64,000 nt of DNA, taken from Desulfovibrio gilichinskyi (GTDB lineage: Bacteria > Desulfobacterota > Desulfovibrionia > Desulfovibrionales > Desulfovibrionaceae). The position numbers were made by a program, and so were the translations under genes. Below, piece after piece: positions 46,105 through 51,109 of the stretch (its first letter is position 1; each line of letters opens with the position of its first letter). The notes under the pieces were generated by a model. That model was not told the DNA's origin and made no database searches. It saw nothing but the letters and a program-made list of their open reading frames with translations. The stretch covers positions 682,001 to 746,000 of the forward strand of contig NZ_FWZU01000002.1 in assembly GCF_900177375.1 (NCBI RefSeq), given 5' to 3'.

Positions 46105-46396
46105 ATTAATCCTCTTCGATTTGAGCAGCGGTTTTAGAAACCGCATGCCCTGTACCTGATGGCGATTTAAATGAATGATAATTTTCTAGTAAGCGAGAGT
46201 GCTAACTTAAAATATTATGGGGATATCTGCAACTTGGGGGATGTGGGAAGTGGGAGATGCTCAGTATGTTTTAATATGTGTTGTGAAATATATGTTATTT
46301 GAATTTTAATGTGTTATTGACGTTGTTTTTTTTATAATGTATTTGCTACTCCTTTGTGTAGCTATGCCTGCTTAGTATTTTTTATTTAACTGTTAT
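46105..46396. other. Gene-free left flank of the invertible element
   Basis: About 290 bases between the yaiI-type start and the first 26-bp repeat. The yaiI side must hold its promoter. The right part becomes very AT-rich and carries the candidate promoter at 46310-46338. No coding sequence with a credible ribosome binding site was seen. Confidence 0.5.
46310..46338 (+). promoter_or_regulatory. Candidate promoter outside the left repeat, reading into the element
   Basis: TGTGTT (46310-46315), a 17-base spacer, and a perfect TATAAT (46333-46338) point rightward into the NTPase gene, leaving a leader of about 70 bases. An overlapping TTGACG (46317-46322) has only a weak -10 (TATTTG) 17 bases on. 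The site is outside the inverted repeat, so it would drive whichever gene faces it. Confidence 0.4.
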
Positions 46397-46422
46397 TTAT
46401 CGATAACTAGGAATTATGAATG
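46397..46422 (+). repeat. 26-bp inverted repeat, left copy (candidate recombinase site)
   Basis: This copy matches the one at 50084-50109 base for base in opposite orientation. It begins TTATCGATAACTAGGAATT and ends in ATGAATG. Read on the other strand it has CATAA, a 7-base spacer TTCCTAG, then TTAT, with imperfect 8-base arms ATTCATAA and TTATCGAT, like a Xer/dif site. The spacer complement supplies the AGGA ribosome site and the first ATG (46416) starts the NTPase gene. Confidence 0.9.
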
Positions 46423-48836
46423 TATCATTAAATACGGATGAGCACCAAAACCTTTTTAAATCAGAGGAAGCATGGCCTTTTGCTATTCGAGAGAATAAGG
46501 TTGAGGAGTGCATTGATTTCTTGTTGTCTGAAGCTAATCCTACCCCCAAGCTTTTAAATATTTATGGGGTGTCAGGAAGTGGAAAATCTTTTTTAGCGAA
46601 AGAAATAGTCAAAAAGTCGATGGAAAAGGAAAAATGTGGGGCAGCCATATATATTAATGTCCCGCCTAGTGATTTAGATTCATTTGCTATTTTAAAAAAA
46701 ATCAAGGTACTCTTAAATAATGAGCATAAGGCTACCCGTGATGCTCCTTATTATGTTTCAAAGCAAATTGCCTCTAGGTGGCGGTTAAAACAAAACTATT
46801 CTTCATCATGGAAGAAATCTTATTTATATAGGGCTGTAAGGGATTTAGTTGGCCTTATTCCTCTTGGTGGACCATTTCTTAAAGCCATTATGCCTCAGAT
46901 TTTGCCATCAAATGGCAACAAAGAATATAGTATTACAAAGCCAATTCATTTTTTACTTGAGCAAGCAAACTCTCAGAAAATAATTTTAGTATTCGATAAT
47001 ACTCAATTTATACCAGCAACAATTATAGATTTACTTGAAGGTGAATTTGAATCAGCTAACTGCTCATTTTGCTTAATATTAATTGAACGAATTTTATGTA
47101 AACGTTGTGTTAACTGGCTTCCTAATATACCAAAATTAATAGCGAAAGAGATAGAGTTGGGACGCGCTTCCCGTAAAGAAATAGAATTTCTAGTTCAACA
47201 GATTCTTCCTTCTGAATTTCCTAATGAAGAAATTATTGAAGCTGTCTATAGGCGTAGTGGTGGGAACCTTAAATGCGTATGGTTTCAGCTTAAATTTATT
47301 TATGGGCGACGGCTTTCACAAGTTCAAAGCAACTCTCCAGATTCATATGAAGATGTAATTCAATCTTTAACTCCAGGAGATCAAACTATTTTAAGATTAG
47401 TAGCTTTGGTTCTTGGAGGATTGTCAATAGTACATCTAACCAAGCTGTTAGCGATTATAAATATACATATAAATTCTGAGACAATACTCGGGTCAATTTC
47501 AGATTTGAAGGAACTAGGACTGCTAATTATAAACAGTGATAGTAATGATAAGGTTAAGGTTGAACATGAGATTGTTGCACATATTGTTGATAAATTAACA
47601 CCTGAAGAAGAAAAAATGGAATTGAGGCAACAGCTAGTTACTGCATTTTGCCAAATACTTAGAGATGACCTTGATATTACTCGAAATGCGGCTCTGTATG
47701 ATAAATTGATTGGGTTTGCTCATGAAAAAGAATTTCGTGCAAGTCCGCATATGCAAAGTAGTATTGTTGCATATATTCATCAACAACACTTAAATGAATC
47801 CTTTGCTTATCTGGTTTCTATTTGCCGGGATACTGTTTGCTGGGATGTTTTGGATATTTTACCTTCATACTCAATAAAGGAAATGTTGAATGCTATTCAA
47901 AAATGTTCTTTTTTTAGTTTTGGTCTTATTGCTACTGAAAAATTAAAAAAACATCATGAACATAGGCAGACAGCTTTACTATTTGAATCTAAATATCTTG
48001 TGCAATTGTTTAGATATGATGAAGCAGAGTGCTCTTTGTCTAAAGCAATACCCTCAAAGGAGAAAGACGTTGTAAATTTCAATATTATGAGCAACTTGTG
48101 TCAAGATGAAGATGCAGCAAAGATATCTTGTAAGATCTTTAATTCTTTATCACTAGAGTCTTCTTATGAATTTGACTATACAATTTTAAGAAATTCTGGA
48201 CATTTATTTACACCTCAAAAAGCTTATAATGTCTTAATTGCAGCCAAAGATGGATATACCAGAATCGGATCATTATTTGGAGTTGCAACTACTTTAAATA
48301 ATTTAGGAATTGTTGAAATTTTTAGAGGAGAAAAAGAAAAGGCTAAAAAAAATTTTGAAAATTCCCAACAAATGCTTAAAACTTTGAGATCGAATGAGGA
48401 GTATCAACCATTAGTTAATCTTGCAGGTTTATCTTTTAGTGAAGGAGAGTACAAAAAAGCTCGAAAGCTTCTATTAAGATCCAGGAATTTAGCTCCTTGT
48501 TCCTTAGTAATGGACGAAGCCATGCTGAATTTTAATGAAGCTGTAATTTCTCTAGTTCTTGGTGAGATTTCAGAAAATGTAGCTATTGATATTTTTCAAC
48601 AGATTTATGCGAATGCCACAAAAACTCGAGATTTACGATTTATTGAAGTTGTAGCATGGCTTTGCGCTACAGTAGAGGTAGAATTTAGTGGATATTCTCA
48701 GACCAAATACTCTAGCAAAATGATTTCTAAAATATTACAAAGTCATAATGTTGGATTAGAACTATTAGTCAAAACTAAAATAAAAAAAAATGTTATAAAA
48801 GTTCCTTTTGTCCTATCACCGCATTGGCGTTATTGA
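46416..48836 (+). CDS. P-loop NTPase with C-terminal TPR-like repeats (STAND-like)
   Basis: 806 residues, AT-rich codon use unlike the neighbours. Walker A is GVSGSGKS (51-58). A Walker B-like strand is IILVFDNTQF with Asp194. A winged-helix-like part seems to follow (about 300-400). Residues about 610-740 carry TPR-like repeats (TTLNNLGIVEIFRGEKEKAKKNFE). This order (NTPase, helical middle, TPR) resembles STAND ATPases such as MalT-type regulators or defence sensors, but no DNA-binding or effector domain is recognised at either end. The start ATG lies inside the inverted repeat; the second ATG four bases on hits a stop after three codons. Confidence 0.8.
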   Translation: MNVSLNTDEHQNLFKSEEAWPFAIRENKVEECIDFLLSEANPTPKLLNIYGVSGSGKSFLAKEIVKKSMEKEKCGAAIYINVPPSDLDSFAILKKIKVLLNNEHKATRDAPYYVSKQIASRWRLKQNYSSSWKKSYLYRAVRDLVGLIPLGGPFLKAIMPQILPSNGNKEYSITKPIHFLLEQANSQKIILVFDNTQFIPATIIDLLEGEFESANCSFCLILIERILCKRCVNWLPNIPKLIAKEIELGRASRKEIEFLVQQILPSEFPNEEIIEAVYRRSGGNLKCVWFQLKFIYGRRLSQVQSNSPDSYEDVIQSLTPGDQTILRLVALVLGGLSIVHLTKLLAIINIHINSETILGSISDLKELGLLIINSDSNDKVKVEHEIVAHIVDKLTPEEEKMELRQQLVTAFCQILRDDLDITRNAALYDKLIGFAHEKEFRASPHMQSSIVAYIHQQHLNESFAYLVSICRDTVCWDVLDILPSYSIKEMLNAIQKCSFFSFGLIATEKLKKHHEHRQTALLFESKYLVQLFRYDEAECSLSKAIPSKEKDVVNFNIMSNLCQDEDAAKISCKIFNSLSLESSYEFDYTILRNSGHLFTPQKAYNVLIAAKDGYTRIGSLFGVATTLNNLGIVEIFRGEKEKAKKNFENSQQMLKTLRSNEEYQPLVNLAGLSFSEGEYKKARKLLLRSRNLAPCSLVMDEAMLNFNEAVISLVLGEISENVAIDIFQQIYANATKTRDLRFIEVVAWLCATVEVEFSGYSQTKYSSKMISKILQSHNVGLELLVKTKIKKNVIKVPFVLSPHWRY

Positions 48837-48844
48837 TATGTACG

Positions 48845-50086
48845 TTACTTAGGCTGCCAGTTATATTTTTGTGTCAACTGCTTTATTAACCGCTGCGATA
48901 TATCTCCACCATTAATTAATTGGGCAATCCATGAACCTAAAAGATTTATATCACTTTCTTCATAATCTAATATTGCAAGATTTGTTGTTCCTATTCTCAA
49001 CCCAGAAGTCTCTGTAGGAGATCTCCGGTCATTAGGTACTAAATTCTTATTGATGAGCACTCCTAACTCTTCAAATCGTCTTTCGAAGTGAGCTCCACTA
49101 CCTTTTTCTTCTAGCTCTACTAATAAAATATGACAGTCGGTACCACCTGTCGTCAGTTTAATGTTATTTCTTTTTAAGCTATCCCCTAATATTTTTGAAA
49201 CACTAATTATTTTTTTTGCATGCTCTCTAATATCTCGGCACTTCCATTCTAAAAGAGCTGTATATTTCCCAAGCATATTTGTTTCATTTGCTCCTCCCTG
49301 CGTTACAGGGAAGATGGAAGAATGAACCTGACTTTTAAGTGATTCGCGGTAAATAATTATACCGGAATTGGGTCCACGTAAATTTTTTACAGTGTTAAAG
49401 GTCACAAAGTCACAGTATGGAAAAACAGATTTATGCAGCCCTGCTGCAATAAAAGTAGCTGTATGCGAGATATCTGCGTGCAAAAATGCATTGTATTCAT
49501 TAGCTATGGCTGCGCATTTTTCAAAATCAATTTCACGTGGCTGAGCGCTGCCTCCCACTATGATTAATTTAGGATGAATCTCTTTTGCTAAATCTCTGAG
49601 CTGTGTATAATCTACTTGGCCTTCTGGTGTTAATCCATAATTCACAGTTTTATGTCTTCGTGAAATGAGCACTGTATGTGATATATGCCCACCATCACAA
49701 GGTTTAAGACACAAAACTTTATCATTAGGTTTAAGGATTGCATTGTAAGCTATTTGATTGGCTTGAGTACCTGAATGGGGTTGAAGTGTTGCTCTATAGC
49801 CTTTTGGGTTACCAAATAAATCTAAAACTAAAGATTCTCCTTCAGTTTCAACTATGTCCATCATGCCAGCCCCAGGCAAAAACCTTGCTCCAGGCATACC
49901 TTCTGCAGGAAGTACAAATGAAGGTTCAGAAAGAGATTTTAAAACAGATGAAAAAGGATAACTAGCACTCGCGATCAAATGAATATAATTATTTAAAATT
50001 CCCCATTGAAGATCAATGACTTTAGAAAGCCGACTCATACTATCTTCGGAACTTCCTTTACATCGTTGGGTGTAAGTTTTTACCAT
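48845..50086 (-). CDS. Serine hydroxymethyltransferase-like PLP enzyme
   Basis: 413 residues of the GlyA fold. QPHSGTQAN (102-110), GGHISH (132-137), ADISHTATFIAAGLH (204-218; Asp205 and His208 match the PLP-stacking and binding positions) and the lysine in NTVKNLRGPNSG (Lys234, the Schiff-base position) are all there. The usual HKTLRGP is altered to VKNLRGP, so it is divergent from housekeeping GlyA and may be an aldolase or transferase on another amino acid. It starts at the second ATG of the right inverted repeat; the first ATG there is out of frame. It is oriented like the recombinase upstream. Confidence 0.85.
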   Translation of the reverse strand: MVKTYTQRCKGSSEDSMSRLSKVIDLQWGILNNYIHLIASASYPFSSVLKSLSEPSFVLPAEGMPGARFLPGAGMMDIVETEGESLVLDLFGNPKGYRATLQPHSGTQANQIAYNAILKPNDKVLCLKPCDGGHISHTVLISRRHKTVNYGLTPEGQVDYTQLRDLAKEIHPKLIIVGGSAQPREIDFEKCAAIANEYNAFLHADISHTATFIAAGLHKSVFPYCDFVTFNTVKNLRGPNSGIIIYRESLKSQVHSSIFPVTQGGANETNMLGKYTALLEWKCRDIREHAKKIISVSKILGDSLKRNNIKLTTGGTDCHILLVELEEKGSGAHFERRFEELGVLINKNLVPNDRRSPTETSGLRIGTTNLAILDYEESDINLLGSWIAQLINGGDISQRLIKQLTQKYNWQPK

Positions 50087-50109
50087 TCATAATTCCTAGT
50101 TATCGATAA
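50084..50109 (-). repeat. 26-bp inverted repeat, right copy (candidate recombinase site)
   Basis: This is the reverse complement of 46397-46422 with no mismatch. The bases just outside differ between copies, so the repeat is exactly bounded. Here its ribosome site AGGA and the second ATG (50086-50084) start the PLP-enzyme gene. It lies seven bases past the recombinase stop codon. Confidence 0.9.
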
Positions 50110-50116
50110 GTCCCTC

Positions 50117-51040
50117 CTAACGAATATCCTTCCTAGGATGCTTCAAAGTCAGTATTCCGCGTTGTGATGACAGGCTGACGTGGGTGTATATTTCTGTGAC
50201 TGCTAGTGAACTATGTCCTAGTAATGTTTGGATATTTCTTATATCAACGCCGTTTTCAAGGAGCATGGTTGCAATGGTGTGCCTGAACATGTGCGGGGTG
50301 ACGTTTTCAGTTACACCTGCGATGGCGCAGTATTTCTTGATTATTCTTCGGACTGACTGGTCGGAGAGGGGATTGCTGTCTCTGTTTAGGAAAAACGTTG
50401 CAGAATTATGTAATTTATCTTTATAAAGCTGAACGTACTCTTTTAAAATAGCTAAACATTTTTTTTCACAAAGCGGTATTATTCTTTCTTTTTTACCTTT
50501 ACCAAGTATCTTCAGCTGATTGTTCTTTAAGTCTATTTCATATGGTGTAAAATTGCATAGCTCAGAGACTCTTATCCCTGTAGAAAATAGAAGTTCTATT
50601 GCAGCTATATCGCGAACAGCTTCGCGATATAATCTGCATTCAGGAGAAAATTTATTTTTCTCTAAATATGCATATTTTATTATTCTATTTAATGATGTTT
50701 TAGAGACAATTTTAGGAAGTATTTTTGATCTGTTTAGCTTTAAACGTATTTTTCTGAATGGAGTGGTGCTTATAATATCTTCGTATTCTAAGAAAGTAAA
50801 AAAAGATTTCAGTGTGGCAATCTTTCTTTTTATACTTCTTGGTTTATATTTTGAGTTTAAAAAAGCAATAAATTCTCTTAAAATATCCTTATCAATACTA
50901 TTTACGTTGTTGCTCTGTGTTTCTATCTTACTTTTAAATTGAGATAAATCTTTTCCATATGCATTTAAAGTAAGTTTTGAAAGATCTCTCTCAATTTTAC
51001 AATGCTGCAAAAATATTTCTATAGCGTAATTCAGTTTCAT
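50117..51040 (-). CDS. Tyrosine recombinase (XerC/XerD-like)
   Basis: 307 residues from the ATG at 51040, preceded by GGGAG; the frame extends 15 codons further into a hairpin and is less likely used. An N-terminal SAM-like core-binding domain (about 1-90) is followed by a catalytic domain with the full set: Arg157 in TGIRVSELC, Lys181, His250 and Arg253 in HMFRHT, His276 in LLGHSS, and Tyr285. It has Xer length with no extra integrase domain. Its stop lies seven bases from the right 26-bp repeat, making it the obvious enzyme for inverting the neighbouring segment. Confidence 0.92.
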   Translation of the reverse strand: MKLNYAIEIFLQHCKIERDLSKLTLNAYGKDLSQFKSKIETQSNNVNSIDKDILREFIAFLNSKYKPRSIKRKIATLKSFFTFLEYEDIISTTPFRKIRLKLNRSKILPKIVSKTSLNRIIKYAYLEKNKFSPECRLYREAVRDIAAIELLFSTGIRVSELCNFTPYEIDLKNNQLKILGKGKKERIIPLCEKKCLAILKEYVQLYKDKLHNSATFFLNRDSNPLSDQSVRRIIKKYCAIAGVTENVTPHMFRHTIATMLLENGVDIRNIQTLLGHSSLAVTEIYTHVSLSSQRGILTLKHPRKDIR

Positions 51041-51109
51041 ATATAGTATCTCCCATTGTTTGAAGGTAATAAATGCTTCAAACAATGGGAGTGATCAATT
51101 ACTATATAT
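51039..51109. repeat. Long inverted repeat over the recombinase start
   Basis: CTCCCATTGTTTGAAG (51050-51065) and CTTCAAACAATGGGAG (51076-51091) form a perfect 16-bp stem around ten bases. An outer pair ATATATAGTA (51039-51048) and TACTATATAT (51100-51109) extends it after a small bulge. On the recombinase mRNA the ribosome site GGGAG is in the stem and the start codon at its foot. It may throttle translation or be a second recombinase binding site. Confidence 0.8.

Follow-up and report, generated by a model that had tools for sequence, protein, structure and literature searches.

The window, a 64,000-nt stretch of the genome of Desulfovibrio gilichinskyi, contains two convergent genes that lie between the copies of an inverted repeat and beside a recombinase gene. 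The first gene, on the forward strand at 46416–48836, encodes a STAND-like NTPase with a TPR region (NB-ARC, 25.6 bits against a cut-off of 23.5). The second, on the reverse strand at 48845–50086, encodes an SHMT-like PLP enzyme (PF00464, E 2e-77), in which the lysine motif TVKNLRGP is present. Only 8 bp separate the stop codons of the two genes. The repeat, TTATCGATAACTAGGAATTATGAATG, is 26 bp long, and its copies at 46397–46422 (forward strand, the distal site) and 50084–50109 (reverse strand, the proximal site) are 100% complementary. A search of the window for TAGGAATTATGAATG, with up to one mismatch allowed, returned two matches, both at the repeat copies, where 0.02 were expected; together with the full complementarity, this rules out a chance repeat. 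A Xer-like tyrosine recombinase is encoded on the reverse strand at 50117–51040, with its likely start at the ATG at 51040, and reads toward the proximal site. In the distal outer flank, outside the segment that would invert, lies a promoter-like block, TTGACGTTGTTTTTTTTATAA, at 46317–46337 on the forward strand.

Both copies of the repeat end in ATGAATG, which holds two start codons in different frames, ATG1 and ATG2. In the left copy, ATG1 opens the 806-residue NTPase and ATG2 reaches a stop after 3 codons; in the right copy, ATG2 opens the 413-residue PLP enzyme and ATG1 reaches a stop after 10 codons. The first-pass annotation of this locus had described a 26-bp repeat element from which the NTPase gene uses the first ATG and the PLP gene the second, with short frames from the unused ATGs, and our results agree with it on each of these points. 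In both used frames the repeat also contains an in-frame stop codon (TAA 12 nt 5' of ATG1 and TGA 3 nt 5' of ATG2), so that translation arriving from upstream would be unable to enter either protein. The assignment of the NTPase start to ATG1 is firm, because the P-loop lies at residue 51 and the only in-frame starts in between are TTG 36 and TTG 37. The assignment of the PLP enzyme start to ATG2 is less firm: another in-frame ATG occurs at residue 17, and SHMT models align only from residue 22–32 onward. We favor ATG2 over residue 17 because an AGGA motif precedes it at a 7-nt spacing and because starts at the site are the rule in the family. The same AGGA is 3 nt from ATG1, a poor spacing for a ribosome site. 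Since it is better placed for ATG2 than for ATG1, translation in the window would be biased toward the PLP enzyme over the NTPase.

To characterize the repeat, we compared sites across related elements. The site core is ATAAYTnnnWATTA, represented in the window by ATAACTAGGAATTAT at 46403–46417 and by its counterpart at 50089–50103. The identity of the core in 26 of 26 elements is a biased figure, because most elements were found via inverted repeats near a recombinase. The fair test was a search of 17 same-genus genomes with ATAACTnnnAATTAT, in which the nnn spacer was left free. The two sites had the same spacer in all 20 inward-facing pairs less than 8 kb apart, of which 19 are independent and one (G010) spans 296 bp and is gene-free. 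Of the 8 pairs in other orientations, a single one had matching spacers, and it came from a scaffolding artefact. A further 24 site matches were unpaired, among them real sites at contig ends (G002) and the second junction of G013, and carried 18 different spacers. Strand exchange by tyrosine recombinases requires matching spacers at both sites, and the match within an element but not between elements is as this reaction requires. The 26-bp repeat is thus very probably a site for site-specific inversion, as the sequence comparisons indicate, and the earlier proposal that it is a crossover site is well supported by the spacers and by the rearrangements in relatives described below. The inner half-site, TTATG, resembles the right half of dif; a single dif-like sequence, differing from the query pattern at 3 positions, is present in the window's genome. 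Many proximal flanks have a G-rich stretch (GGAGGGA, AGGAGAGAAG) between the stop codon of the recombinase and the site, at 50109–50122 in the window. It lies about 22 nt upstream of the start codon, which is too distant for a normal ribosome site.

Inversion itself was visible in relatives of the cassette. The complete Aliarcobacter cryaerophilus plasmids pM830MA and pACRY43158 have collinear flanks that are 99.8–99.9% identical, and between their 17-bp repeats a 3,423-bp segment is reversed (99.9% identical, 2 mismatches and 1 gap). One recombinase protein accession is common to both plasmids, and the outer flanks stay in place while the inner sequences swap. The segment encodes an 823-residue protein without a Pfam match, whose partner is an ATP-grasp protein; in one plasmid the gene for the 823-residue protein is broken into two reading frames. 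In G013, a draft from the window's genus, a 103-bp stretch (the site and about 80 bp of the NTPase 5' end, 98%) adjoins the distal flank as well as the recombinase flank. In G007, another such draft, the 5' end of one gene is found at the recombinase flank and, past a 10-N gap, at the distal flank, where the junction is thin (12 bases of the gene, 6 of them past the repeat). Contigs end at a site in G002 (both flanks), G013, G292 and G189, and a few bases before the expected site in G186. Because repeats of such length rarely break assemblies, the simplest reason for these breaks would be mixed junctions in the reads. Among the NTPase/ATP-grasp pairs, C9 and G007a have opposite orientations, and G015/MC06b and G011/MC06a have the same orientation. 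The window's strain shows a single orientation in its one assembly.

These rearrangements bear on the reading that the inverted repeats mark the termini of a mobile element, excised or integrated by the recombinase, with no inversion switch. The distribution is patchy enough to fit such an element, with the recombinase in 19 of 297 genomes of the class and the window's NTPase in its own genome only, of 98 searched. However, the repeats do not enclose the recombinase, the sites are inverted rather than direct, and the related Aliarcobacter segment is reversed in place with its flanks unchanged. We therefore regard a mobile element as highly improbable.

The recombinase search of the 297 class genomes (E 1e-70 or better) gave 25 matches in those 19 genomes. 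An inverted site pair accompanied 20 of the matches (19 with both gene starts found), and 4 were on contigs that break off at the site (G002, G292, G189) or slightly short of its expected place, by a few bases (G186); in G156 no site was found near the match. A recombinase search of genome contigs yielded 9 loci, mostly from Desulfovibrio relatives and Delongbacteria, of which 6 had an inverted site pair and 2 were on contigs that stop at the site or just short of it; no site was found at the remaining locus, L010 (29% identity). Four of these loci (L002, L003, L004 and L006) correspond to contigs already present as G007, G186, G292 and G157, and each entered the count a single time. The 28 elements tabulated come from the window's class and Delongbacteria and include 4 further contig-search loci and 4 orphan cassettes, in which the stretch fetched held no recombinase (C4 in the window's own genome, one in G146 and two in G008). 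Similar elements occur on Aliarcobacter, Streptococcus and Paenibacillus plasmids. With the Aliarcobacter recombinase as query, 297 phylum genomes (E 1e-60) gave two matches, the window's own genome and G376, and a scan of viral contigs found no relatives.

The window's genome has three elements, namely that of the window, C9 and the C4 orphan. C9 (L022, 3337–7902) pairs an NTPase with an ATP-grasp protein, and a TGA interrupts its copy of the recombinase; of the 25 recombinase matches, 6 had stops listed within the alignment, the C9 copy among them. The C4 orphan (L021, 3168–4266) consists of genes for 205 and 152 residues, without Pfam matches, which both start with MSES at the site. It has the promoter-like block, the 7.5 kb of sequence retrieved contains no recombinase, and a homologous orphan is present in G008 (L072). 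Elsewhere, L058 (6787–13154) carries tandem cassettes with the spacers GAG and GGA, one of them without an adjoining recombinase of its own. In L070 (2187–3500), inverted sites 296 bp apart enclose no gene, and an adjoining 306-residue open reading frame is tyrosine-recombinase-like by eye.

We next consider where the genes of these elements begin. Starts were assigned by a first-start rule, which found both starts in 27 of the 28 elements; on G008 it picks a TTG although an ATG is immediately next to it. Measured from the end of the core, 50 of 54 starts lie within 20 nt and 39 of 54 within 3 nt, and 32 of 54 are wholly within the identical repeat. Homologous loci thus keep their starts at the repeat, which the first-pass annotation had named as a check, and starts at the inner edge of the site are a family-wide feature. 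In 15 of 27 elements the repeat contains the starts of both genes, in the same register in 13 and in different frames in 2; these two are the element of the window and the orphan of G146, each of which has ATGAATG. At 2 of 27 elements, the use of two frames was rejected as a family rule, and this part of the annotation holds for those two elements only. Its proposal that the repeat doubles as a ribosome binding site fared similarly. AGGA is present in 7 of 26 core sequences, and we rejected a ribosome site as a conserved property of the repeat in this cassette family, although AGGAG is clear within the repeat of the streptococcal plasmids, where the recombinase is directed away from the cassette. 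An ATG also falls within the repeat in Streptococcus salivarius NU10 and an S. equinus plasmid.

Two homologous orphan pairs (50.5% and 68% identity) begin with MSES and MSES in C4 and with MND and MNE in G008. On this comparison, the recombination site seems to dictate the first residues of the cargo proteins. In G016a (L053, 9438–9480), the ATG of the site opens a short leader whose TGA overlaps the ATG of the NTPase, an arrangement that suggests coupled translation.

The position of the starts has a direct consequence for inversion. The annotation's statement that inversion disrupts neither reading frame is correct, but this follows automatically, because each start codon lies within the flipping segment and each gene travels whole.

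Flanks and cargo do not always travel together. Plasmids of A. cryaerophilus and A. faecis are alike on either side as far as the sites (97.8% and 90%) and carry different cassettes, and the same was seen when S. salivarius ICDC2 was compared with NU10 and with LAB813, which share its flanks. S. salivarius ICDC2 carries the window's pair (SHMT, 37% identity over 397 positions; NTPase, 23% over 721), and its NTPase is the only match at E 1e-6 to the window's NTPase among 72,556 plasmid records. These plasmids, the orphan cassettes and the presence of the NTPase–SHMT pair in two phyla would all be expected if the locus were mainly a platform for cassette exchange, in which a double crossover swaps whole gene pairs and inversion is a by-product without regulatory purpose. 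On the other hand, homologous recombination in the flanks could also swap cassettes, and the near-constant distance of the promoter-like block and the tight placement of starts relative to the site on both sides indicate expression control too. We consider exchange as the main function possible but rather doubtful.

Pfam scans covered the window pair, 49 cargo proteins of 25 other elements and 10 plasmid proteins, with the two G008 orphans left out. A P-loop NTPase was matched (E 0.001) in 16 of 26 elements, in 7 of these 16 above the Pfam curated cut-off. Some of these NTPases also carry SIR2-like or Mrr domains, and we take them to be STAND proteins partly from size and TPRs. The cargo seen most often is an NTPase together with a small-molecule enzyme. 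Of the 26 elements scanned, 7 pair the NTPase with an ATP-grasp protein; in others its place is taken by PLP enzymes, glycosyltransferases, a carbamoyltransferase, a methyltransferase or proteins without a match. The remaining 10 elements encode radical-SAM with pentapeptide proteins, a CDP-alcohol transferase, a methyltransferase, a KASIII-like protein and others, and many of their cargo proteins have no Pfam match. The window's NTPase has no match in the PDB. At E 0.001, the PADLOC profiles matched 0 families for the NTPase, the PLP enzyme and the recombinase, and we rejected a known anti-phage defence system on this basis. A role of the NTPase–PLP pair in conflict or signalling is a guess.

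The recurrence of ATP-grasp partners, and of the NTPase/PLP enzyme pair in two phyla, also raises the question of whether both genes are needed together and are expressed in either orientation, with the convergent layout as compact packaging; the enzyme might, for example, make a signal or a mark that the NTPase senses. The 3' ends of the paired genes overlap or are at most 8 bp apart in 21 of 27 elements, which fits this reading, and the NTPase and the PLP enzyme could both be expressed at once. However, further partners occur too, and flanking the pair with inversion sites would be a strange way to express both. Equal expression of the two genes is unlikely, because the two flanks differ strongly. 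Overall, we judge a requirement for joint expression to be unlikely.

The promoter-like block, TTGAC(G/A)TTGtttt...ATAA, was recognized by eye in 9 of the 11 same-genus distal flanks that were used for the consensus, about 86 nt upstream of the core (75 in C4). It is absent from two further same-genus flanks inspected (G016b and G008), and the two G008 orphans lack it or have a partial match at most. Altogether, 6 of 18 same-genus elements are without the block or have it in part (G001a, G001b, G016b, G008, G008o7 and G008o8), and none was seen in 9 flanks from other genera. In the window's 3.96-Mb genome there are 3 block matches, all at its three elements. With up to 2 mismatches, the 17 genomes gave 28 matches as against 27 with the reversed pattern; matches with at most 1 mismatch were at elements in 9 of 10 cases, and those with 2 mismatches in 2 of 18. 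TTGACG and TATAAT are separated by 11 nt in the window and by 15 nt in G011, and the consensus promoter scanner did not report the block. Because of this spacing, we rejected an ordinary sigma-70 promoter.

The conservation of this block beyond the distal site hints at an either/or switch, in which it is plausible that the distal flank drives one gene at a time. The recombinase would cross over in the central spacer of the site. Each gene would then move entire, taking along its start codon on the inner half-site; the upstream DNA and the outer half-site would stay. Transcription from the promoter-like block would serve whichever gene faces the distal flank, and the other, which faces the recombinase, would be reached at most by read-through from the recombinase gene. 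The outcome would be an either/or (or high/low) switch between the NTPase and the PLP enzyme. The exchange of promoters by inversion that the first-pass annotation proposed would be supported on one side only, by the distal block. We think it probable that the window locus is an invertible two-gene cassette with two unrelated convergent genes as an either/or switch. The observations behind this are unrelated convergent genes between identical inverted sites beside a Xer-like tyrosine recombinase, in a layout that recurs in several phyla. The safest claim is that of an invertible, exchangeable two-gene cassette with start codons anchored at the recombination site.

The best PDB match of the window's recombinase is XerD (1a0p). 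It scored below the curated cut-offs for the chromosome-dimer resolvases XerC and XerD (249.9 of 335.15 and 246.8 of 329.6 bits) and far below that for integron integrases (98.5 bits, cut-off 265), and two other genes of the window's genome have 33–35% identity to it. We rejected an ordinary XerC/XerD and an integron integrase on these scores. Directly 5' of its start, at 51050–51091 on the reverse strand, is a 16-bp perfect hairpin (fold z −6.5) that holds the SD-like GGGAG of the recombinase; close relatives have a common upstream block, ATTGTATACTCCTT..TTTTGTCGCAT, in its place. The hairpin may silence or regulate the recombinase of the window.

Known inversion switches mostly flip a promoter or swap the ends of one surface protein. 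The invertible segment of the Hin system, which uses a serine recombinase, carries a promoter and the recombinase, not alternative genes, and the Rci shufflon swaps the ends of one gene. Integrons place a tyrosine recombinase beside exchangeable cargo with an outside promoter, and have mostly single-gene cassettes with folded attC sites in direct order and circular excision. The window's cassette shares with invertons the inverted sites that bound a segment and the adjacent tyrosine recombinase, and both orientations were found in relatives (the A. cryaerophilus plasmids, G013 and, with thinner evidence, G007). It is not a fim-type invertible promoter, with two whole genes within the segment and the promoter-like block outside; it is not an integron, having two convergent genes between inverted sites instead of single-gene cassettes in direct order; and it is not a shufflon, having one segment with two whole genes. 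Milman 2023 (NAR) is said to be a systematic survey of gene-altering programmed inversions, and convergent genes with start-site inverted repeats may fall within its scope. Among the open-licence papers listed by our searches, judged by title and the opening of the abstract, none describes whole heterologous convergent pairs with exchangeable cargo.

The closest parallel is the Vpma/Xer1 system of Mycoplasma agalactiae, in which, according to the sections on the locus in PMC2268961, a Xer-type tyrosine recombinase is encoded in the locus, inversion joins silent genes to one promoter, and the proposed sites lie just 5' of the start codons (−1 to −72). Tyrosine-recombinase inversion with sites near start codons is thus already known, and a Xer-type recombinase and such sites are common to Vpma and the window cassette. 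In these sections, however, the Vpma genes encode related surface lipoproteins, the sites are in the 5' untranslated region, and two-gene NTPase/enzyme cassettes do not appear. The Hin flagellin switch likewise gives either/or expression of two genes by inversion, as outlined in PMC8987985. The Rci shufflon, in the description of its sites in PMC11852207, has a tyrosine recombinase and a 31-nt site with a 7-bp core, a conserved right arm and a highly variable left arm; it comprises four segments and seven sites, whereas in the window cassette whole genes move with their own starts.

Taken further, the data are compatible with a widespread and undescribed class of integron-like platform, in which two-gene cassettes dock, swap between replicons and phyla, and flip, with one gene at a time turned toward a resident promoter; this is quite possible, although we hold it tentatively and short of probable. 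The proposed docking bay is a Xer-like recombinase with two inverted, spacer-matched sites, and its cargo is often a STAND-like NTPase with a small-molecule enzyme. The inner half-site TTATG is proposed to supply or set the start codon, so that any cassette of matching format would be expressed at once, and compatibility groups for exchange would be set by the type of spacer. As either/or conflict systems, the pairs may split a population into enzyme-making and NTPase-making cells. In the window and its relatives, it appears that unrelated whole genes vie for a single promoter outside the segment, and different pairs occupy matching flanks across strains. If this is true, phase variation would be joined here with cassette exchange, a recombinase with spacer-matched sites would be a marker for uncharacterised NTPase–enzyme systems, and the cassette would offer a two-state tool for engineering.
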